From: Candidatus Desantisiibacteriota bacterium
GTDB lineage: Bacteria; UBA9089; CG2-30-40-21
Length of the DNA: 18,591 nt
Direction of reading: 5' to 3'
NCBI GenBank assembly: GCA_016208205.1
Contig: JACQYP010000030.1
Span: forward strand, 6,781-25,371
The notes beneath the pieces are model-generated. The model had not been told where the DNA came from. It was given only the letters and a program-made list of their open reading frames with translations, and searched no databases. The translations under genes were made by a program, and so were the position numbers. Shown piece after piece: positions 2,725 through 14,154 of this stretch. Within the stretch, counting starts at the first letter, position 1, and each line of letters starts with the position of its first letter.

Positions 2725-5700
2725 CTACTCTACTTGTCTTTGTATTCTGGCGATAGCTGCTTTAGCGGCTGCACGGACACATGCTTCCGTATCATTATTG
2801 GAAATAATAGTCAACATCTTCAATGCCCGTGGAGCACCTATTTTGCCTAAGGCTTCAGCGGTTGTTGTTCTGACAACACCATTGCTGTCATTTAATCCCT
2901 TGAGCAATGCCTCAACCAGGGTATCTTGATTGGTAGATATATTCCCTATGGCAATTGCTGCCCCACCACGGCCATACCAGCTGTCATTATTCAAATTGCT
3001 GCTTAATGCCAGGATTATTTTTTCTTGTAATGATATGTCTTGTGTCTTTTCCAAAAGGCTTCCCAGGGCAATAGCCGCATACCATCGCACGATCTCCTGA
3101 TCACCATCTTGATACTCGAAAACTTGAAGAAGCGGGATAATAGCATCATCTCCCATAGTGGTTAACACATCTGTTGCTACCTTGCGAATGGTATTATTTT
3201 TATGTCCCATAGCCTTGATTAATGCTGGAATAGTTATTGTGCCTATCTTAATCAGTCTGCCTGTTACTATTTTCCGAATTAATGGATCCCGGGCATTAAG
3301 ATACTCAATTAATAACTGTATCCCTTCCAGATACCCTCTCTCACCCAGGGCAAGGGCAGCATTAAGTTGAATGTCTGGATTTGAATCGTCCAGGCTAATC
3401 ATTAAAAATTTAATCACCTCATCATCATCTATCTTTCCGAGGGCATTTGCTGCGTATACCCGGACATCCTCATTCTTATCTTCCATGGCTGTTGCTGCCA
3501 ATGGTTCAATGGCACTCGCATCAGCTATCTCTCCAAGGGCGATAACTGCTGCACCGCGGACATACCATGCCTCATCCTTAAGCATTGCTGTTAAAGGAGA
3601 AACAGCTCGCTTATCCTTTAGTTGTCCAAGGGCAAGGGTTGCATGTGCCCTTGCTGTATCAGTTCCATGAGATAATACTTCAATTAAGGATGGTACACAA
3701 GCGGTGCCGATATTAACTAAGGCTGAGGTGGTAATAGAGGCTATTTCCTCTTCCAAAGAGGCTTTCTCCTGCAGAGGAGTTTCCTCTGCTAAAGATGCTC
3801 TCTCTGCCAGAGGTGCTCCCTCTTGCTGAAGGAATTCTATCAGATATGGGATGGCTTCCTCTGCCTTTAATTTACCCACAGCCTCTATTGTTTGAGGCAG
3901 TAATTCTTGATAGATAAGGGTATCATCCCTTAGTTTTTTAATCAGGGGTTCAATAGCTCCTCTATCCCCTATCTCGCCAAGAGCCCAGGCAGCCCTGCCG
4001 GTTATTTTCTTATCTTTTTTGGAAGGTGATACACCTATCGATAGATTATCAACCAGTATATCCTTTGCACCAGCAGCTTGCAGTTTGCCGAAGATGGTAA
4101 ACACATGTATCTTATTTGGTGGTTGAGGGTTGGTGGTATTTGTCCTGTCTATGGATTTAAGCAGGTAAGGGATACAGGATGAGCCTATATTTATCAGAGC
4201 AGATACAGCTGCCTCCTGCACAGAGGTATCAGTATCATTCAATAACTCAATTAAAGGGATAATTGCCGTATCTACTGTTAGTGTAGCGACCTCTGTATTC
4301 TGTATTCTGCCCAGTGCTTCTGCTGCACATGCCCTGATAAAGCTCTCCTCATCCTTTAATGATTGGATAAGCGGAGGTATTGCTGCTGGATCTTTCATCT
4401 TACCCAAGGCAATTGCAGCATTACCCCTGACTGTCCAGATGGCAGGGGGAAGCCCCTCTGGCGTTAGATTCAAAAGATTTATCAGATAGGGGACAGCTTT
4501 TTTATCACCTATTTCACCCAGGCCAATCACTGCATTTCTTTGTGTTCTCCAGTCATCATCATTTAACATGGCTATCAGTGGCTCTACAGCTTTTTTGCTT
4601 AGAGTCTTTCCCAATGCAGCAGCAGCACACCTTCTAATCTCTGCATCCGTATCTTGTGCTGCAATAATTAACATATCAATCCCTGAGTCATTAATCTCAT
4701 CCCATAGAAGATTTGTTACATCACCATGTAAGGCAGATGTAAACATCCTCACAGCTTTTTCATCATTTATCCTGCCAATGGCAATAATAACCGATTCTTC
4801 TATTCCATAATCATTTTTTAACCATGAGATCAATGTTGGCAATGCCTCGCTGTCACCAATCTTTCCCAGTGCCCATACAGTTTTTTTCAATATAGACGGG
4901 TTGATTATAGAGGCAGAATCTCTGGCAGAGGTTAAAATCTTTGTTAATGACGGTGTTGCCTGCTTATCACCAATTTCCCCTAATATCCAGATAATGCATC
5001 CCTCAAGATCCATATCATTAGTATCCAGATAAGGGAGTAATGCAGGCACAGCAGTCGTTCCCATCTTTATCAATGCAGAGGAAATATCACGGCGAGGGAG
5101 TTCATCCTCTTCAGATAATGCCTCTATCAGGGGTGAAATTGTCCTTATATCTCGAATCTCCCCTAGTCCATAAGCCGCATATTGCCGCACCTGAGGATTT
5201 TTATCCCTTAGTATTCGAAGCAATGGAATGGTTGACGGTGTACCTATTTCTATCAATGACCATACTGCCAGCTTCATGCATTTGTCATAGTTGCTATCTG
5301 TATCACAGATGATGTCTTTATCTTCTGTAGAATGGATGAGTATATTGATTAATAAAAGTATTGCCTTTGTTGCCCGTATCTTACCTAAGGCTGCTATTGC
5401 CTCTTTTTGGACAGACTCATCCTCGTCCTTGCATGTATGGATAATTGCATCCGCAGCCTCTATAGAGCCTATCTCTCCAAGGGCATGGACAGCTTTGTCC
5501 CGAATTATCCAATTTTCATCCTTAAGGCATTTAATCAAGGCAGGGATAGCAGCAGGAGAGCCAATCTTCCCCAGAGATATAACGGCATTTCTCTTTACCC
5601 TCCATTTGGGATCATTTAAGGCATGGATCAGGGCAGTAACTGCCTCCTTGGAACAAACCTCTTTGCCGGCGGAGATACTATCCCCCAGGGTCTCAGCTGC

Positions 5701-5931
5701 TTGCATTCGTATGGCTTCATCCGTATCTTTCAAAGCAGAGATAAGAGACAGGTTGTCTTGTGCCGGAGTGGCTTCATCGAGTGATTGATTGGTAGTTAGT
5801 AGGACAGGCTTCCAGCCTGTCATTTGTGGGGTTTCCTCAAGTGATTGATTGGTGGCATTAGTAGATATTTCATTACCATAAACATGTGTAGATAAAGCTA
5901 TCAAGACAATTGATAGAAGAATAAAACGCAT
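2725..5931 (-). CDS. Large exported HEAT-repeat (PBS-lyase type) protein, 1068 aa
   Basis: The protein is an almost uninterrupted array of ~31-residue HEAT/PBS-lyase helical repeats, with units such as AIPALIKCLKDENWIIRDKA followed by VHALGEIG. Such solenoids act as protein-binding scaffolds; the ligand cannot be inferred. The N-terminus MRFILLSIVLIALSTHVYG is a clear Sec signal peptide with likely cleavage after VYG, so the product is periplasmic or extracytoplasmic. The start has a strong ribosome site (GGAGG, 6 bp before ATG on the minus strand). Residues ~26-50 contain an in-frame palindromic repeat (TGWKPVLL). Residues ~700-730 contain a low-complexity Leu/Ala/Glu stretch (APLAERASLAEE, then TPLQEKASLEEE) that breaks the repeat rhythm. 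It is convergent with fdhD and divergent from the next HEAT genes. Function is unknown. Confidence 0.85.
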   Translation of the reverse strand: MRFILLSIVLIALSTHVYGNEISTNATNQSLEETPQMTGWKPVLLTTNQSLDEATPAQDNLSLISALKDTDEAIRMQAAETLGDSISAGKEVCSKEAVTALIHALNDPKWRVKRNAVISLGKIGSPAAIPALIKCLKDENWIIRDKAVHALGEIGSIEAADAIIHTCKDEDESVQKEAIAALGKIRATKAILLLINILIHSTEDKDIICDTDSNYDKCMKLAVWSLIEIGTPSTIPLLRILRDKNPQVRQYAAYGLGEIRDIRTISPLIEALSEEDELPRRDISSALIKMGTTAVPALLPYLDTNDMDLEGCIIWILGEIGDKQATPSLTKILTSARDSASIINPSILKKTVWALGKIGDSEALPTLISWLKNDYGIEESVIIAIGRINDEKAVRMFTSALHGDVTNLLWDEINDSGIDMLIIAAQDTDAEIRRCAAAALGKTLSKKAVEPLIAMLNDDDWRTQRNAVIGLGEIGDKKAVPYLINLLNLTPEGLPPAIWTVRGNAAIALGKMKDPAAIPPLIQSLKDEESFIRACAAEALGRIQNTEVATLTVDTAIIPLIELLNDTDTSVQEAAVSALINIGSSCIPYLLKSIDRTNTTNPQPPNKIHVFTIFGKLQAAGAKDILVDNLSIGVSPSKKDKKITGRAAWALGEIGDRGAIEPLIKKLRDDTLIYQELLPQTIEAVGKLKAEEAIPYLIEFLQQEGAPLAERASLAEETPLQEKASLEEEIASITTSALVNIGTACVPSLIEVLSHGTDTARAHATLALGQLKDKRAVSPLTAMLKDEAWYVRGAAVIALGEIADASAIEPLAATAMEDKNEDVRVYAANALGKIDDDEVIKFLMISLDDSNPDIQLNAALALGERGYLEGIQLLIEYLNARDPLIRKIVTGRLIKIGTITIPALIKAMGHKNNTIRKVATDVLTTMGDDAIIPLLQVFEYQDGDQEIVRWYAAIALGSLLEKTQDISLQEKIILALSSNLNNDSWYGRGGAAIAIGNISTNQDTLVEALLKGLNDSNGVVRTTTAEALGKIGAPRALKMLTIISNNDTEACVRAAAKAAIARIQRQVE
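5781..5853. repeat. Palindromic repeat inserted in frame in the HEAT gene, with flanking duplication
   Basis: The core gacaggct-tcc-agcctgtc (5803-5821) is a perfect short palindrome. It is flanked by identical 13-bp direct copies gtgattgattggt at 5781-5793 and 5841-5853, exactly 60 bp (20 codons) apart; similarity extends about 10 bp further upstream with mismatches. On the coding strand the core is read as TGWKPVLL within the mature N-terminus, just after the signal peptide. Confidence 0.75.
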
Positions 5932-6658: not shown

Positions 6659-7120
6659 ATGTTAGGATTTTTACTCAATTTTTTTCAACCCAAATGGAAG
6701 CACTCAAGCCCAAAGGTTCGGGAAAAGGCAATAAAAAAGCTTGGAGAAACAAAAAAGAAGAATGCTGTGAAGATTCTTCTGGATGCACTTGGTGATGGTC
6801 ATGAGTCTGTGCGTGTTGCAGCTACAGAATCGCTGAGTCAGCTGGGATCTCAGGTAGTAGAACCTATTGTCCAATCTCTGAGCTCTCAGGATCCATCTGT
6901 ACGAAAAGCGGCTGTCCATGCTCTGGGCGCGACAAATGATTCACGGGCAATAAAACCACTGATTAATGTTTTAGAGGACGAAGATCCTGGTGTGAGAAAA
7001 ACAGTTATAGAGGTATTAAGCAAGATAGGGGATTCGCAGGTAATCGAGCCGATTATTACTATCTTAGCTGATAATGAGACTTATGTTCGCAAGGCAGCTT
7101 CTGCTATAATCGGGATATGA
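6659..7120 (+). CDS. HEAT-repeat protein, upstream part (153 aa)
   Basis: Four to five HEAT units are visible, for example DSRAIKPLINVLEDEDPGVRK. There is no signal peptide, so the product is presumably cytoplasmic, unlike the exported HEAT protein on the other strand. ATG 6659 has the ribosome site aagaagggga. The ORF ends mid-repeat after YVRKAASAIIGI, and its stop overlaps the next ORF's start (ATGA, 7117-7120). The following ORF resumes HEAT repeats at once in the -1 frame. Either these are two translationally coupled genes or one gene is split by a frameshift. No specific partner can be inferred. Confidence 0.75.
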   Translation: MLGFLLNFFQPKWKHSSPKVREKAIKKLGETKKKNAVKILLDALGDGHESVRVAATESLSQLGSQVVEPIVQSLSSQDPSVRKAAVHALGATNDSRAIKPLINVLEDEDPGVRKTVIEVLSKIGDSQVIEPIITILADNETYVRKAASAIIGI

Positions 7121-7701
7121 AAAAGATGCTTGATAGACTTGTCCGGTGTGGTGATTCTCGTGCAATCATGCCTGTTGGCAAGGCGTTAAAAGAAGGTGGC
7201 TGGACGATTAGACCTTTCGCTGTAGAGGCATTGAGTAAATTCAGTAGTTCACAGGTTGTAGAACTGCTGACTATTGCCATGGAGGATGAAAACTTTGAGA
7301 CCAGATTGGCTGCAGTAAAGGCATTGGGCAATTTTTATGATAGCCAGGCAGTAGAGTTATTGATTAAAAGTCTGGGTGATACAGAATGGTCTGTGCGGGA
7401 GGAATCAGCTAAGGCATTGGGACAATTAAATGATAGCCGTGCAATAGAACCATTGATTGCTGCTATGGATGATGAAAAACATCAGGTTCGAAAGACAGTT
7501 GCCTCTGCCCTTGCTTCGATTTACGCATCTAAAAGTATTTCTGCTGAACAAAAGGCAATGATTCTTCAGCATAAGGATGCGATAGCTCAGCAAGGTATAA
7601 AGATAAGCGGGCAACCGGATGTGGTAAAAATAGTTAATTCAAAATCGCAAGAAGCTCCAAAGCCTGATGGAAAAGATGGACAACCGGCAGAGAAAAAATA
7701 G
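7117..7701 (+). CDS. HEAT-repeat protein, downstream part (194 aa)
   Basis: HEAT units begin at about residue 13 (DSRAIMPVGKALKEGGWTIR) and continue to about residue 130 (DSRAIEPLIAAMDDEKHQVR). A hydrophilic Lys/Pro-rich tail follows, ending PKPDGKDGQPAEKK. There is no signal peptide or membrane segment. The ATG overlaps the stop of the preceding ORF by 4 bp, without a clear ribosome site of its own, which suits coupling or reinitiation. If the two frames were fused, the junction repeat would be about 41 residues rather than 31. That is a mild argument for two separate ORFs, but it does not exclude a frameshift. Confidence 0.72.
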   Translation: MKKMLDRLVRCGDSRAIMPVGKALKEGGWTIRPFAVEALSKFSSSQVVELLTIAMEDENFETRLAAVKALGNFYDSQAVELLIKSLGDTEWSVREESAKALGQLNDSRAIEPLIAAMDDEKHQVRKTVASALASIYASKSISAEQKAMILQHKDAIAQQGIKISGQPDVVKIVNSKSQEAPKPDGKDGQPAEKK

Positions 7702-8033: not shown

Positions 8034-8597
8034 ATGATTGTTGCTAATGATATTCGTCCGGGAATGATTGTAGAGATGGACAATGGGTTATATACCTGTA
8101 CAGAGTTCCAGCATGTAAAGCCGGGAAAAGGGGGGGCATTTGTCAAGGCTAAGTTTAAGAACTTTCATATTGGATCGGTTGTTGACAAGACCCTTCGTCC
8201 GGAGGAGAAGTTTCATCTGGTCAGAATCTCCAAGAGAAATGTAAACTTTCTGTATCAATCTCAGGATAATTATGTGTTTATGGATAATGATTCATATGAA
8301 CAGATAGAGGTTTCACAGGATAAGATCGGCACAGCTGCCGGATTTTTGAAGGAAAATAATGAGGTCAGTCTTCTTGCAAGAGAGGATACAGGTGAGGTAA
8401 TGGGGATAGAATTGCCTACAGCCGTGAATCTAATGATTACAGAGACAGACCCTGGATTTAAGGGGAATACAGTCACCGGGGCAACAAAACCGGCTACCAT
8501 GGAAACAGGAATAATTATTCAAGTTCCATTATTTGTAAATGTAGGTGAGGTTATTCGCGTTGATACTCGCACCAATGCGTATATTGAAAGGGCATAA
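8034..8597 (+). CDS. efp: Elongation factor P
   Basis: EF-P binds between the ribosomal P and E sites and relieves stalling on polyproline stretches. The 187-residue length is typical. The KOW-like domain I begins MIVANDIRPGMIVEMDNGLY. The tip loop KPGKGGAF carries Lys32, the position that is lysylated, rhamnosylated (when Arg) or otherwise modified in other bacteria. No modification gene is in the window. Domains II/III contain FMDNDSYEQIEV and TVTGATKPATMETG and end VDTRTNAYIERA. It is the first gene after a consensus promoter and is followed by accB, an order also seen in Firmicutes. The stop abuts a dispersed repeat element. Confidence 0.97.
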   Translation: MIVANDIRPGMIVEMDNGLYTCTEFQHVKPGKGGAFVKAKFKNFHIGSVVDKTLRPEEKFHLVRISKRNVNFLYQSQDNYVFMDNDSYEQIEVSQDKIGTAAGFLKENNEVSLLAREDTGEVMGIELPTAVNLMITETDPGFKGNTVTGATKPATMETGIIIQVPLFVNVGEVIRVDTRTNAYIERA

Positions 8598-8701: not shown

Positions 8702-9145
8702 ATGGATATTCGTCAACAGGTCAAAAGCCTTATAGATATTATGGATGAAAATAGTTTAAGTGAGCTTGAGATTGAGGATACCAATCTTAAGGTAAAGATT
8801 TGCCTATCAAGTGATAGAATGGCTATGATCTCTGATAGAGATGCTGCTTCTATTTCGGATGGTGATAAACTATCTACAGATACAGAGACAGCTCCTGAAC
8901 CTGCAGACAAAGAGATTTGTTCACCATTGGTTGGAATATTTCATCTTTCTCCAGAAGGGAAAGACACCCCTTATGTCAAAACAGGTTCAATTATCCAACC
9001 ATCTCAGGTTCTTGGGCGGGTTAGGGTTGTAGATATAGATAATGAGATTCGGGCAGAGGTATCAGGGGTAATTACAGAAATATTGATAAAGGATGGGCAG
9101 CCGGTAGAGTATGACCAGCCATTGTTTTCGATTGAGCCTTCGTAA
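8702..9145 (+). CDS. accB: Biotin carboxyl carrier-like protein lacking the biotin-accepting lysine
   Basis: By fold and position this is AccB, which carries biotin between biotin carboxylase (AccC) and carboxyltransferase in acetyl-CoA carboxylase. At 147 residues it has normal length. An N-terminal helical region (1-40), a variable acidic linker (41-69) and the biotinyl domain (70-147) are all seen: ICSPLVGIFHLSPEGKDTPY, then NEIRAEVSGVITEILIKDG and QPVEYDQPLFSIE. The hairpin that should read EAMKM reads R108-V-V-D111-I, so the attachment lysine is Asp111 (codon 9032-9034). No indel separates the aligned flanks. As written the protein cannot be biotinylated there. Plant BADC proteins are a known parallel: lysine-less BCCP relatives that bind biotin carboxylase and restrain ACCase. 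The role here is inference. The ATG has a modest ribosome site (aaaagga). Confidence 0.88.
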   Translation: MDIRQQVKSLIDIMDENSLSELEIEDTNLKVKICLSSDRMAMISDRDAASISDGDKLSTDTETAPEPADKEICSPLVGIFHLSPEGKDTPYVKTGSIIQPSQVLGRVRVVDIDNEIRAEVSGVITEILIKDGQPVEYDQPLFSIEPS

Positions 9146-9316: not shown

Positions 9317-9469
9317 ATGCTAAAAAAAGAAAAAGATCTGGTACAACTAAGAAATCCAAAATCGGATCGCTATGTAAAAATTGATAAATCTATAGGAAAA
9401 ATCATTTCGTATAAGAAAAGTGAAGGACCTTATAAGAACATTCCTATAGTTATGGATCGTACAAAATGA
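9317..9469 (+). CDS. Small basic protein of unknown function, cassette gene 1
   Basis: This 50-residue, Lys-rich protein is not recognised with confidence. The core is LRNPKSDRYVKIDKSIGKI followed by SYKKSEGPYKNIPI, a compact beta-rich-looking motif. ATG 9317 is preferred because agaggtga lies at the right distance upstream. An in-frame ATG at 9272 would add 15 residues rich in Lys and Thr that are read from the end of a repeat element. The stop overlaps the ATG of the next gene by ATGA (9466-9469), so the two are probably translated together. Small size, basic charge and tight coupling would suit an antitoxin or partner protein, but that is inference only. Codons are markedly A-rich compared with efp and accC. 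Confidence 0.6.
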   Translation: MLKKEKDLVQLRNPKSDRYVKIDKSIGKIISYKKSEGPYKNIPIVMDRTK

Positions 9470-10107
9470 TTTTATATAAACCAACTGATGGTGATGTCCA
9501 AACAACAAAGATTGAATACCGTCCAAAAACTTGTTTTGTAATGACTAAGATAGGAACACCAATTCCAAGAGAAGTTAAAAAGATAAGGGAAAAACTTACA
9601 GAAGTCCTTTCTAAATATGAAATGAAAGAAATTGATGCTGGTAGTGAGATAACAGGAAGGGATTTTTTATTAAAAATCTGGCAAATGATAGTTGTAGTAC
9701 CACTGGGAATTGCAATTATTGATGATAGTATGTCATCAAATACTTTGTGCAATATATTTTATGAAGTGGGTCTCACGCATGCTTTAGGAAAAGAAACAAT
9801 TGTAATAAAGGCAGAAAATACAAAGGTTCCATCAGATTTCGTTAGAACTGAATACATTAACTTTGATAATAAGTTTGAGGAAAATCTAAAGAAATATTTT
9901 AGGACTTATTTTGAGTTAGCAAATCACTATGAAACAGTTGCATATCAACTTGAAAGAAACCCATTGCTAGCAATTGATTATTTACGCCGTGCATACCTTA
10001 TTTCAGGAAATGAAGAATTGCGAGCTAAAGCTAAGAAATTACATAGAGAGGCTACTTTGGAAGACCGAGCAAAAAATAGCGTAGAGCAGTTATTGGTCGA
10101 TTTTTAG
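9466..10107 (+). CDS. TIR-like / nucleoside-deoxyribosyltransferase-like protein, cassette gene 2
   Basis: This 213-residue protein has an N-terminal alpha/beta domain that resembles predicted nucleotide-binding TIR-like and nucleoside 2-deoxyribosyltransferase-like families. Supporting features are the first strand [12 protein letters not shown] (about 23-34), [12 protein letters not shown] (64-75), [13 protein letters not shown] (81-93), and the hallmark [19 protein letters not shown], in which Glu100 would be the catalytic acid. Usual relatives have an ADI.IADLT-type strand followed by N.NV.YELG.AHA; the match is by pattern only. The C-terminal ~75 residues are helical ([20 protein letters not shown]) and could be an oligomerisation or partner-binding region. 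It overlaps the small gene upstream and ends 14 bp before accC. NAD or nucleotide hydrolysis is possible but unproven. The A-rich composition suggests transfer. Confidence 0.65.
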
Positions 10108-10121
10108 GAGTAGGGGGGGAA

Positions 10122-11471
10122 ATGTTTAAGAAAATTCTTATAGCTAACAGGGGGGAGATAGCCCTCAGGATCATCAGGGCAGCAAAGGATTTAGATATAA
10201 AAACCGTTGCCGTATATTCTAAGGCAGATGCAGATTCCATGCATACTCAACTTGCAGATGAGAGGGTATGCATTGGTCCTGCCCCTGCTTCAGAGAGCTA
10301 TCTTAATATACCGCAAATAATTAGTGCGGCTATTATTACTGAATGTGATGCCATTCATCCTGGATATGGTTTTTTGGCTGAAAATGCTACATTTGCAGAG
10401 ATTTGTATAGAACATAATATTGCCTTTATTGGACCGGCACCGGATGTAATTACCAGTATGGGAAATAAGATAGAGGCAAAGGTGTTAATGAAAAAGGCCG
10501 GTGTTCCTATTGTGCCCGGTTTATTAGAGGCTGTAATCAGCATAGCTGAGATAAAAAAGATTATACAAAAGATTGGGTATCCTGTGATTATTAAGGCTGC
10601 GGCCGGTGGTGGTGGGAAAGGGATGCGAATTATTGAAGATTCATCACAGCTTGAGCCGATGATTAATGCAGCCAGATTAGAGGCGGAAAAGGCGTTTAAG
10701 GACTCAGCCCTTTATATAGAAAAATATATTCATGAATCAAGGCATATTGAGGTCCAGATATTAGCTGATAATTATGGCAATGTTATTCATCTTGGCGAAA
10801 GAGAGTGCTCTATCCAATCAAGGCATCAAAAACTAATTGAAGAATCTCCTGCAGTAAACCTTGACCCAAAGATAAAACAAAAGATGTGTGAAATTGCGGT
10901 AAAAGCAGCTAAATCAGTAAAATACAAGAGTGCCGGAACAATAGAATTCTTATTTGATTCAAAGGGAAAAGATTTTTACTTTATTGAGATGAATACCCGT
11001 ATTCAGGTGGAACATCCTGTAACCGAATTAGTTACAGGAATTGATCTGGTAAAGATGCAAATCCAGTTAGCTGCAGGTGAAAAGCTCAAGCTTACCCAGA
11101 AGGATATTGTTGCCTCCGGCCATGCTATTGAATGTCGAATAAATGCTGCAGATCCTGATAATAACTTTGCCCCTTCACCGGGTAAAATAGAAAGCCTTCA
11201 TCTGCCTGGCGGACCCGGTGTTCGGCTGGATACTCATATCTACTCCGGCTACACCATTCCCCCAAACTATGATGCAATGATAGCCAAGCTGACTACCTAT
11301 GGACATGATAGAAAAGAAGCTATGATTAGAATGAGAAGAGCACTTTCTGAGTTTATTGTTAATGGAATAAAGACAACGGTTCCATTGCACCAGAGGATAT
11401 TAAGCAATAAGTCATTTATTAAGGGAGAGATTCACACCCATTTCTTGAATTATATGGATAAAAAAGGGTAA
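10122..11471 (+). CDS. accC: Biotin carboxylase subunit of acetyl-CoA carboxylase
   Basis: AccC carboxylates biotin on BCCP using ATP and bicarbonate. Its 449 residues equal the E. coli length. It opens [20 protein letters not shown], has the ATP-grasp glycine loop [12 protein letters not shown], the catalytic segment [19 protein letters not shown], and [18 protein letters not shown] with the Glu, Asn, Arg and Glu residues that bind metal and position biotin. The end (biotin carboxylase C-domain) includes [20 protein letters not shown]. All key motifs look intact, in contrast to the lysine-less accB nearby, so it probably works with another biotinylated carrier elsewhere. The ribosome site is aggggggg before ATG 10122. 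The stop lies in the start of a repeat block. Confidence 0.97.
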
Positions 11472-11606: not shown

Positions 11607-11996
11607 ATGGTAGAACAAGCTAATATTGGAAGCGTAAAGGTAAGCGATGAGGTTATTGCCACTATATCAAGTGTTGCTGCCACTCAGGTTGAGGGTGTGG
11701 CAGGAATGAGCGAGGGGATTGTTGATGGAATAGCCAAGATCATTACCGGTGGTCAGGCAACCAAAGGGATAAAGGTCTCAGTTGGAGAAGAAGAGGCTGC
11801 TATTGATATCTCTGTTATCGTTGAATATGGGCATTCAATTGCAGAGATAGGAAGAAGGATCCAGGAGGCTGTGAAAAATGCTGTGGAATCCATGACCGGC
11901 TTAAGGGTAGTAGAGGTAAATGTGTATATTCAAGGTGTGCATCTGTTAGATGAAAAACGGGATGAAAAACACGAAAAAGGAAGAAAGCTTAAGTGA
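11607..11996 (+). CDS. Asp23/Gls24 (YqhY-like) protein
   Basis: This 129-residue DUF322 protein has the family core ISSVAATQVEGVAGMSEGIV, KGIKVSVGEEEAAIDISVIV and VESMTGLRVVEVNVYIQGVH. In Firmicutes the yqhY paralogue follows accB-accC and is linked to control of lipid synthesis, while Asp23 is anchored to the membrane by AmaP. Here it follows accC and precedes an AmaP-like gene, so it combines both contexts. There is no membrane segment; a cytoplasmic, membrane-associated location through the next gene product is likely. The ribosome site aaggaggga is strong. The C-terminus is a charged tail (DEKRDEKHEKGRK). Confidence 0.9.
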   Translation: MVEQANIGSVKVSDEVIATISSVAATQVEGVAGMSEGIVDGIAKIITGGQATKGIKVSVGEEEAAIDISVIVEYGHSIAEIGRRIQEAVKNAVESMTGLRVVEVNVYIQGVHLLDEKRDEKHEKGRKLK

Positions 11997-13026: not shown

Positions 13027-14154
13027 ATGATGGATAAAGGAATATTAAGGATTATTGATGCTAATCTCAATCGAGCCAGAGAAGGGTTACGGGTAGTTGA
13101 AGAATTAGTAAGGTTTGACTTAAACGATTCTGGAATGAGCAAAAGATTAAAGGTGATACGGCATGAGATTGCCGGTTTGATAGATGAGATATTTGACTCA
13201 TCCTTACTTATCTCTGCCCGGGATAGCCATAATGATGTCGGGCTGGCTATACGAGTAGATACAGAATGTTGTAGAACAGACAAGACAGGGATAATAAAGG
13301 CGAATATGAAACGCAGCCAAGAGGCTATCCGGGTATTGGAGGAGTTTATTAAGATAGAGGCACAAAGGCATGTAGGGGCGGGTTTCAAACCCGCCTGTTC
13401 CAAACCAGCACAAAGGCAGGAGGAGACAGAAGAGACAAGCCGGAAGATGAAGGCATTGAGGTATCAGGCATATGAACTGGAGCAAGATGTGCTGCAAGCC
13501 TTTGGAAGGAATAAGAGCATTAAGGGTCTATACCTTATCCTTGATTATTGGCTTCTTGGAGAAAAGATCTGGGATAGGGATTATGTTGGTGAGATAATTA
13601 CCGCAGGTGTTGATGCTGTTCAGCTGCGGGTTAAAAATATTGTTCAGCAACATACTGAAAATATATCTGATAGTAAATTAATCATGCTGGGTAATATGTT
13701 ACGGGAGATAACAGAGAAAGCAGATATTCTATTAATCATAAATGATAAGATAGACATTGCCTTAGCAATTGGAGCAGATGGAGTACATCTTGGACAAGAT
13801 GATATTTCAATAGATGTTGCTCGCAGTCTTATGGGCAGGAGAATAATTGGAATATCTACCCACAGCCTTGCTCAAGCACAACAGCCAGCAAAAAATGGTG
13901 CAGATTATATTGGGATTGGACCAGTATACGGCACAACAACCAAGCATGATGCCGGTCAACCATTGGGCTGCAAAATAATTCATGAAATCTGCAAAACAGT
14001 CAACCTGCCTATAGTGGCTATTGGTGGAATAAATGAGGATAATCTTACCCAGGTGATAGAAACAGGTGCGCATGGGATAGCCGTTGCCAGTGCAATCTTA
14101 AAGGCACCTGATCCTGTGGCAGTAGTAAAAAGAATACATGAAAAGCTGGCATGA
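13027..14154 (+). CDS. thiE: ThiD2-ThiE fusion: HMP-phosphate kinase-like domain plus thiamine phosphate synthase
   Basis: Two domains are present. Residues ~4-150 match the ThiD2 family (RIIDANLNRAREGLRVVEEL, SARDSHNDVGLAI, RSQEAIRVLEEFIKI, LRYQAYELEQDV), reported elsewhere as a monofunctional HMP-phosphate kinase often fused to ThiE. Residues ~160-375 are thiamine phosphate synthase, joining HMP-PP and thiazole phosphate: GLYLILD, VQLRVK, IINDKIDIAL, GADGVHLGQDD, IIGISTHSLAQA, DYIGIGPVYGTTTKHD, VAIGGI. Within the first domain, at residues ~112-131, a palindromic repeat is inserted in frame (VGAGFKPACSKPAQ), just before the last conserved helix. Whether the kinase-like domain tolerates it is open. 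ATG 13027 follows aaggg; ATG 13030 is an equal alternative. Translation is probably coupled to the gene before. Confidence 0.92.
   Translation: MMDKGILRIIDANLNRAREGLRVVEELVRFDLNDSGMSKRLKVIRHEIAGLIDEIFDSSLLISARDSHNDVGLAIRVDTECCRTDKTGIIKANMKRSQEAIRVLEEFIKIEAQRHVGAGFKPACSKPAQRQEETEETSRKMKALRYQAYELEQDVLQAFGRNKSIKGLYLILDYWLLGEKIWDRDYVGEIITAGVDAVQLRVKNIVQQHTENISDSKLIMLGNMLREITEKADILLIINDKIDIALAIGADGVHLGQDDISIDVARSLMGRRIIGISTHSLAQAQQPAKNGADYIGIGPVYGTTTKHDAGQPLGCKIIHEICKTVNLPIVAIGGINEDNLTQVIETGAHGIAVASAILKAPDPVAVVKRIHEKLA
13360..13418. repeat. Palindromic repeat inserted in frame in thiD2-thiE, with flanking duplication
   Basis: The core ggcgggttt-c-aaacccgcc (13377-13395) is a perfect palindrome preceded by gtagg. 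Identical 11-bp direct copies gcacaaaggca lie at 13360-13370 and 13408-13418, exactly 48 bp (16 codons) apart, as expected of a target-site duplication. Confidence 0.8.

Follow-up and report, generated by a model that had tools for sequence, protein, structure and literature searches.

The efp-linked accB gene of the window, as we call the whole 18,591-nucleotide stretch of DNA analysed here, encodes a complete BCCP-type protein in which an aspartate, Asp111, takes the place of the biotinyl lysine. This Lys-less BCCP paralogue of 147 amino acids (8702..9145, forward strand) was identified from its open reading frame and by Pfam, NCBIfam, phmmer, AlphaFold2 and Foldseek, and is termed BCCP-B below. 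With a probability of about 0.64, we attribute to it a structural role in acetyl-CoA carboxylase (ACC), as a subunit that is not biotinylated and would work like the plant BADC proteins, with a second paralogue, BCCP-A, as the biotin carrier. Little is understood of how the weakly bound subunits of ACC, the enzyme that commits carbon to fatty acids, assemble.

In solved BCCPs the biotinyl hairpin is the site of biotin attachment, and a single lysine takes the biotin. The hairpin that replaces EAMKM in the window reads RVVDI (9023..9037, forward strand), encoded by the codons AGG GTT GTA GAT ATA for R108, V109, V110, D111 and I112, with the GAT codon of D111 at 9032-9034. In the phmmer alignment the biotinyl lysine of E. 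coli BCCP pairs with D111 and the surroundings of the hairpin are free of gaps. The preliminary description, made from the sequence alone, had read RVVDI for EAMKM with Asp111 for lysine, between flanks that align without gaps; codons and alignment both agree with this reading, and a frameshift as the cause of the missing lysine could be ruled out by the gap-free flanks.

The protein consists of an N-terminal domain (residues 1-38), a linker (39-68) and a biotinyl-like domain (69-147). It matched Pfam Biotin_lipoyl with 37.9 bits, and the NCBIfam model for BCCP, TIGR00531, covered residues 1-145 with 85.5 bits, below the cut-off of 115.2. In the AlphaFold2 model the biotinyl-like domain reached block-mean pLDDT values of 89-96, and D111 forms the tip of the hairpin between strands 103-109 and 112-117; for the whole model, loose linker included, the mean pLDDT was 80.7 and the pTM 0.52. 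Foldseek ranked 1bdo, the biotinyl domain from E. coli, first (TM by target 0.94), and the two top-ranked solved structures were E. coli BCCP and Arabidopsis BCCP. Two further elements are of importance below: a modelled N-terminal beta-hairpin at residues 21-34 (8762..8803, forward strand; strands 21-26 and 29-34) and the motif GQPVEYDQ at residues 132-139 (9095..9118, forward strand), the V-E/D-Y/F part of which is kept in BCCP-B copies. BCCP-B thus resembles bacterial AccB (TIGR00531; E. coli 1bdo and 4hr7) in fold, N-terminal domain, thumb segment, including a retained thumb loop, GQPVE and gene neighbourhood, but differs from it in the absence of the biotinyl lysine and in the score below the family cut-off. 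Labelling such proteins acetyl-CoA carboxylase biotin carboxyl carrier protein, as some sources do, is misleading.

The neighbourhood identifies the gene as the syntenic accB, as had been proposed from context with efp upstream and accC and a YqhY-like gene downstream. The gene for elongation factor P, efp, which we used as synteny anchor, lies at 8034..8597, accC for biotin carboxylase (717 bits against NF006367) at 10122..11471 and the Asp23-family gene at 11607..11996, all on the forward strand. The window AccC aligns along its whole length with a solved biotin carboxylase, and its catalytic motifs, at what we take to be the relevant positions, read as intact in that alignment. Between the BCCP-B gene and accC lies an ORF of 213 aa (9466-10107), for which no match was found in Pfam, NCBIfam or PDB; PADLOC matched it weakly to a model for TIR effectors (E 6.6e-4). 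A homologue occurs upstream of accC in a related genome (G004, L110) and is absent there in two others (G001 and G003; L111 and L116), and the ORF looks like an insertion.

The 12 closest homologues (P0002-P0013) show 49-78% identity, and three of them bear the name Candidatus Desantisbacteria. Alignment of residue 111 in these relatives, which the preliminary description had suggested, gave no lysine in any of the 12, where D or G was found instead. Together with the best 120 of 1041 matches of a profile search, 132 proteins were examined, 37 of which carried Desantis-type hairpins in four classes assigned by sequence; the tip was D in 10 and G in 27 of them, and Lys in none. The absence of the lysine from all 12 closest homologues, together with dN/dS below 0.5 in 13 of 13 pairs, shows that Asp111 is no error. 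An assembly or base error could also be ruled out by the agreement of independent contigs and genomes. Attachment of biotin or lipoate to another lysine of BCCP-B is barely conceivable. Within the window clade two lysines, K32 and K130, are conserved and could be considered for it; both, however, lie outside the hairpin where solved BCCPs carry biotin, K130 is replaced by Glu in G007 and G008, and no Desantis-type protein has a lysine at the tip. Plasmids were searched with the window protein and with two other Lys-less types, and all matches lay below 60% identity.

Biotin carrier candidates were then sought in 19 kin genomes from the phylum of the Candidatus Desantisbacteria record L004. (Record L001, titled Marinifilum sp., holds a Desantis-type locus and belongs to the phylum group of the L004 genome; its title looks wrong.) BCCP-A is present in 18 of the 19 genomes (not G011), has the lysine (EAMK) in 18 of 18 and keeps the BCCP-type N-terminal domain; no accC match was seen near it in the 18 loci read. 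BCCP-B was found in 14 kin genomes plus the window. It has the lysine in G009, G010, G012 and G013, and lacks it in ten of the 19 genomes (G001-G004, G007, G008, G014, G015, G017 and G018) and in the window. A complete BCCP-B was not found in G005, G006, G011, G016 and G019, G016 holding a fragment at a contig end; since an accC match was likewise not found in G005, G006 and G019, these gaps likely reflect genome incompleteness.

All ten kin genomes with a Lys-less BCCP-B encode BCCP-A with EAMK, and all ten have accC. Nine of ten have accA (not G017), nine an accD-type match (not G003) and nine a biotin-ligase family match (not G008). The second biotinyl protein, biotin ligase and accA/accD that the preliminary description had proposed to look for are thus found among the kin genomes, and the window's own genome presumably has BCCP-A as well. 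The Carboxyl_trans matches listed fell in the accA- or accD-type range in 19 of 19 kin genomes, and PYC_OADA was detected in one (G012). In the Lys-less genomes heteromeric ACC is therefore the sole evident biotin-dependent carboxylase and the sole evident user of BCCP-A, from which we infer that BCCP-A must be its carrier. The same data give no support to the idea that BCCP-A serves a different carboxylase, or a decarboxylase, as its biotin subunit. In G012 a BCCP-A domain is fused to a PYC_OADA-type protein (L050/L149), which suggests that AccC could be shared with pyruvate carboxylase there. Other Biotin_lipoyl matches in the kin genomes were weak, at about 21-25 bits, and the few that were viewed (L033, L128 and L131) appeared HlyD-like or GcvH-like by eye.

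The Lys-less gene showed pairwise dN/dS values of 0.07-0.49 (13 pairs), with no stop in any frame used, compared to 0.05-0.08 for AccC (13 pairs) and 0.11-0.31 for BCCP-A (9 pairs). BCCP-B exceeded BCCP-A in seven of the nine pairs measured for both, so its constraint is somewhat looser. Conservation, calculated from 11 of 13 sequences after removal of the partial P0007 and P0012, averaged 0.93 across residues 103-117, which form what was once the biotin hairpin, compared with 0.87 in the domain and 0.54 in the linker. The dN/dS range and the conserved hairpin indicate that the Lys-less gene is kept by selection, less tightly than BCCP-A. A decaying locus with no other ACC genes, the case that the preliminary description had set against its own proposal, agrees neither with dN/dS values below 0.5 nor with the ACC genes of the kin genomes. 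It is highly improbable that BCCP-B is a relic, that is, an old accB that lost its lysine and lingers after BCCP-A took over. The presence of BCCP-A in every Lys-less kin genome, the fast-diverging linker and the seven higher dN/dS values would fit such a relic, but the range of dN/dS, the lack of stops and the conserved hairpin speak against it, as does the equal Lys-less state in other phyla described below.

The gene order around BCCP-B varies among the kin genomes. Ten of the 12 loci examined have efp beside it. BCCP-B adjoins accC in G001, G003, G007 and G008, and is separated from it by the one ORF in the window; in G004 the BCCP-B locus is cut by contig ends, and the ORF upstream of accC fits the window order. 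BCCP-B and accC are not neighbours in G002, G014, G015, G017 and G018; in the last four, BCCP-B is next to efp. Six genomes, G009, G010, G014, G015, G017 and G018 (L124-L127, L129 and L130), have a BCCP-B without the thumb loop, among them copies with and copies without the lysine.

Comparison of the two paralogues with single BCCPs revealed a division of motifs. Single BCCPs carry a V-E/D/Q-Y/F motif about 25 residues past EAMK. Both elements were present in 93 of 93 Lys-bearing homologues, a set biased by having been found as homologues of BCCP-B, and in 30 of 30 cyanobacterial loci, of which the pattern caught 27 and inspection by eye the other 3 (PIEF, PVEYN and PVEYN). In BCCP-A the lysine is present in 34 of 34 sequences and the V-E/D-Y/F motif in 0 of 34 (18 from Desantisbacteria, 16 from Eremiobacterota). 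For BCCP-B, all 15 Desantis sequences and all 30 Eremiobacterota loci have the motif, whether Lys-less or not. These counts use a pattern that was loosened after the misses of a stricter first one had been read; the latter missed 34 of the 93 single BCCPs, 2 of 15 Desantis BCCP-B, 1 of 19 Eremiobacterota BCCP-B and 1 of 37 Desantis-type proteins. The first extraction patterns for Eremiobacterota themselves contained EAMK or V-E/D-Y/F, and the counts given were instead obtained by reading the loci. One protein, P0163, was scored as Lys by the script pattern and has Asn at that position. As the BCCP-B copies of G009, G010, G012 and G013 still have the lysine and the BCCP-A copies of these genomes are without the motif, loss of the motif in BCCP-A probably preceded loss of the lysine in BCCP-B. 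This order is as expected if two duties of an ancestral protein were shared out, and the division singles out the V-E-Y patch as a region worth examining.

Lys-less BCCPs linked to accC are also found in a second phylum. A Candidatus Eremiobacteria record has a BCCP with VEALG directly upstream of accC. Of 58 genomes drawn from Eremiobacterota, 50 matched, and the best 30 loci were read. All 30 have accC nearby; the lysine is absent in 27 (26 Gly, 1 Arg) and three read EALK, a proportion that gives no prevalence, as these are the best 30 of 50 matching genomes for a Lys-less query. The Arg tip was seen in L192 (G058), and EALK in L186, L187 and L191 (G076, G044 and G064), which may reflect loss, late loss or regain of the lysine. 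Among 17 second-copy loci, 16 hold an EAMK BCCP unfused to biotin carboxylase, and the remaining one, in G076, is a BC-BCCP fusion. The Lys-less copy is present in 15 of the 16 genomes with the unfused EAMK BCCP, the accC-linked copy of G044 reading EALK. In G050 both copies lie on one contig of 2.79 Mb, about the whole length of the genome. Full-length accA was detected in 22 of 24 Eremiobacterota genomes searched (not G020 and G076). G020 has a Lys-less copy, with EAMK domains in BC fusions; neither a separate EAMK BCCP nor a full-length accA was found in it. Weaker ACCA-family matches in Eremiobacterota genomes resemble PCC/MCC-type enzymes and, together with the BC-BCCP fusions of G020, make the argument by elimination weaker in this phylum than in Desantisbacteria. 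In several Eremiobacterota genomes the Lys-less BCCP is in frame with the upstream folK (L024, 9500-10390; also L211, L213, L215 and L217), which looks like a FolK-BCCP fusion unless a start was missed.

The loci of the two phyla also bear on the possibility that the function of BCCP-B lies elsewhere than in ACC, perhaps with EF-P or as a scaffold in its own right, its proximity to accC being historical. The efp-adjacent copies of G014, G015, G017 and G018, away from accC, would agree with this. The 30 Eremiobacterota loci with accC nearby do not, and at 23 accC-side loci of that phylum efp was not among the matches listed; folK was present in 19 of the 23. Since the BCCP-type N-terminal domain is kept in addition, we consider a function outside ACC very unlikely.

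A search with two further Lys-less proteins (P0034 and P0037) extended the observation. Its best 120 of 2977 matches contained 118 additional proteins (P0133-P0250), all without the lysine, 94 with Asn and 24 with Arg in its place. They represent two large types, EALN-like and EAMR-like, and the PVEY-type motif is kept in 120 of 120 among the matches listed. Protein names point to Ktedonobacterales for the EALN-like (Asn) type and to Armatimonadota, Cytophagales and Ktedonobacterales, with one protein each, for the EAMR-like (Arg) type. To see whether BADC might come from cyanobacteria, 79 Cyanobacteriota genomes were drawn and their 30 best loci read, all 30 with EAMK; in 16 weak-match regions of the cyanobacterial search the lysine was present in all 13 BCCP-type matches listed.

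Phylogenetic trees were used to estimate the number of origins. The Desantis BCCP-A sequences form one clade, with support of 100/97 with the hairpin columns and 98/95 without them. BCCP-B of the same phylum forms one clade with the hairpin (96/86), and such a clade was not rejected without it (p 0.524). The Desantis loss of the lysine appears as one change in the tree with hairpin columns (84/81) and as two changes without them, where a single change occurred in 1% of 200 bootstrap trees; an AU test without the hairpin columns did not reject a single Lys-less clade (p 0.449). In a cross-phylum tree, built by a quick method from few columns with the hairpin and V-E-Y columns left out, the Lys-less proteins of Eremiobacterota and of the Armatimonadota type group together, apart from those of Desantisbacteria (SH-aLRT 97), and those of the Ktedonobacterales type lie on a further branch. 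This grouping makes more than one origin of Lys-less BCCPs likely. The wider cross-phylum pattern is stronger than the single case of the window. We tentatively propose, at somewhat less than even odds, that a two-carrier ACC operates in bacteria of several phyla, namely Desantisbacteria and Eremiobacterota and, to judge from protein names, Ktedonobacterales and Armatimonadota, with BCCP function split over an obligate A/B hetero-oligomer that would have arisen at least twice in bacteria, independent of or possibly ancestral to plant BADC.

The plant BADC proteins are BCCP-like and have no biotin motif. A 2025 article that calls them unique to the plant enzyme reports that they serve as glue for the BC-BCCP subcomplex and that their action lies near the thumb (PMC11926652). 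BCCP-B has in common with them a BCCP-like sequence with a biotinyl-type domain and no biotinylation lysine and, in the kin genomes, a biotinylatable BCCP alongside in a heteromeric ACC (PMC11926652). It differs from BADC in being bacterial, in lying beside efp or accC and in that the Lys-less copy is the syntenic accB. BCCP-B is therefore plausibly a working analogue of BADC, and membership of the BADC family is not claimed. In the open-licence literature we found no report of a bacterial BADC or Lys-less BCCP, such proteins being described only in plants.

How a BCCP might assemble a carboxylase without its biotin is illustrated by BC1 of Chloroflexus aurantiacus, where N-terminal beta-hairpins of BCCP are reported to form a barrel that joins two BC dimers; formation of the tetramer through this hairpin, and not through the biotinyl core, raised BC activity (PMC11077971). 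BC1 differs from BCCP-B in being biotinylated, at Lys553, and in its fusion of BC and BCCP in one chain, but the parallel that a BCCP part outside the biotinyl core assembles BC dimers would be a plausible job for a Lys-less BCCP (PMC11077971). The N-terminal hairpin predicted for BCCP-B (residues 21-34) may by analogy work as in BC1.

BCCP-B cannot carry CO2. As it retains the fold of a BCCP, together with its N-terminal beta-hairpin and V-E-Y motif, it most likely sits with AccC and with the EAMK-bearing BCCP-A encoded elsewhere. On the basis of the BC1 hairpin, the matching hairpin in the model of BCCP-B and the reports on plant BADC, we propose a mixed BCCP-A/BCCP-B assembly on AccC. In it BCCP-B would be the fixed part that holds the biotin-carboxylase half together and BCCP-A the moving carrier that shuttles carboxybiotin; complex formation, the assembly role and any tuning of activity by BCCP-B are all part of the proposal. 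Several observations run counter to such a scaffold. Constraint on BCCP-B is somewhat looser than on BCCP-A, BCCP-A, with its own BCCP-type N-terminal domain, might serve AccC alone, neither accC linkage nor the thumb loop is universal among BCCP-B copies, and G020 is without a separate EAMK BCCP. Certain bacterial acyl-CoA carboxylases have 'glue' subunits that are small unrelated proteins and no BCCP homologues. These non-catalytic subunits are reported likewise to assemble their carboxylase (PMC11926652).

Alternatively, BCCP-B might mainly inhibit ACC or act as its rheostat: as an inactive carrier it would compete with BCCP-A for AccC and thereby, in some condition, reduce ACC activity. 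Negative regulation through competition with BCCP for BC has also been described for plant BADCs (PMC7712654, PMC12873504), and YqhY of B. subtilis, a relative of the neighbouring Asp23-family gene product, is reported to control and restrain ACCase (PMC5437119). The absence of the V-E-Y motif from all 34 BCCP-A sequences, however, would fit mutual dependence of the paralogues better than a dispensable inhibitor, and we regard a mainly inhibitory role as unlikely. A scaffold in which two paralogues share the labour agrees better with the evidence than a pure inhibitor does. For plant BADC the inhibitor and glue models still compete, and the bacterial pairs make this question testable with small proteins.

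Some further features of the window were observed outside the acc genes. A ThiD2-ThiE fusion is encoded downstream of them at 13027-14154, with matches in some of the kin loci. Large proteins that appear HEAT-repeat-like by eye are encoded at 2725-5931 on the reverse strand and at 6659-7701 on the forward strand, the latter being split across two overlapping ORFs, possibly by a frameshift.
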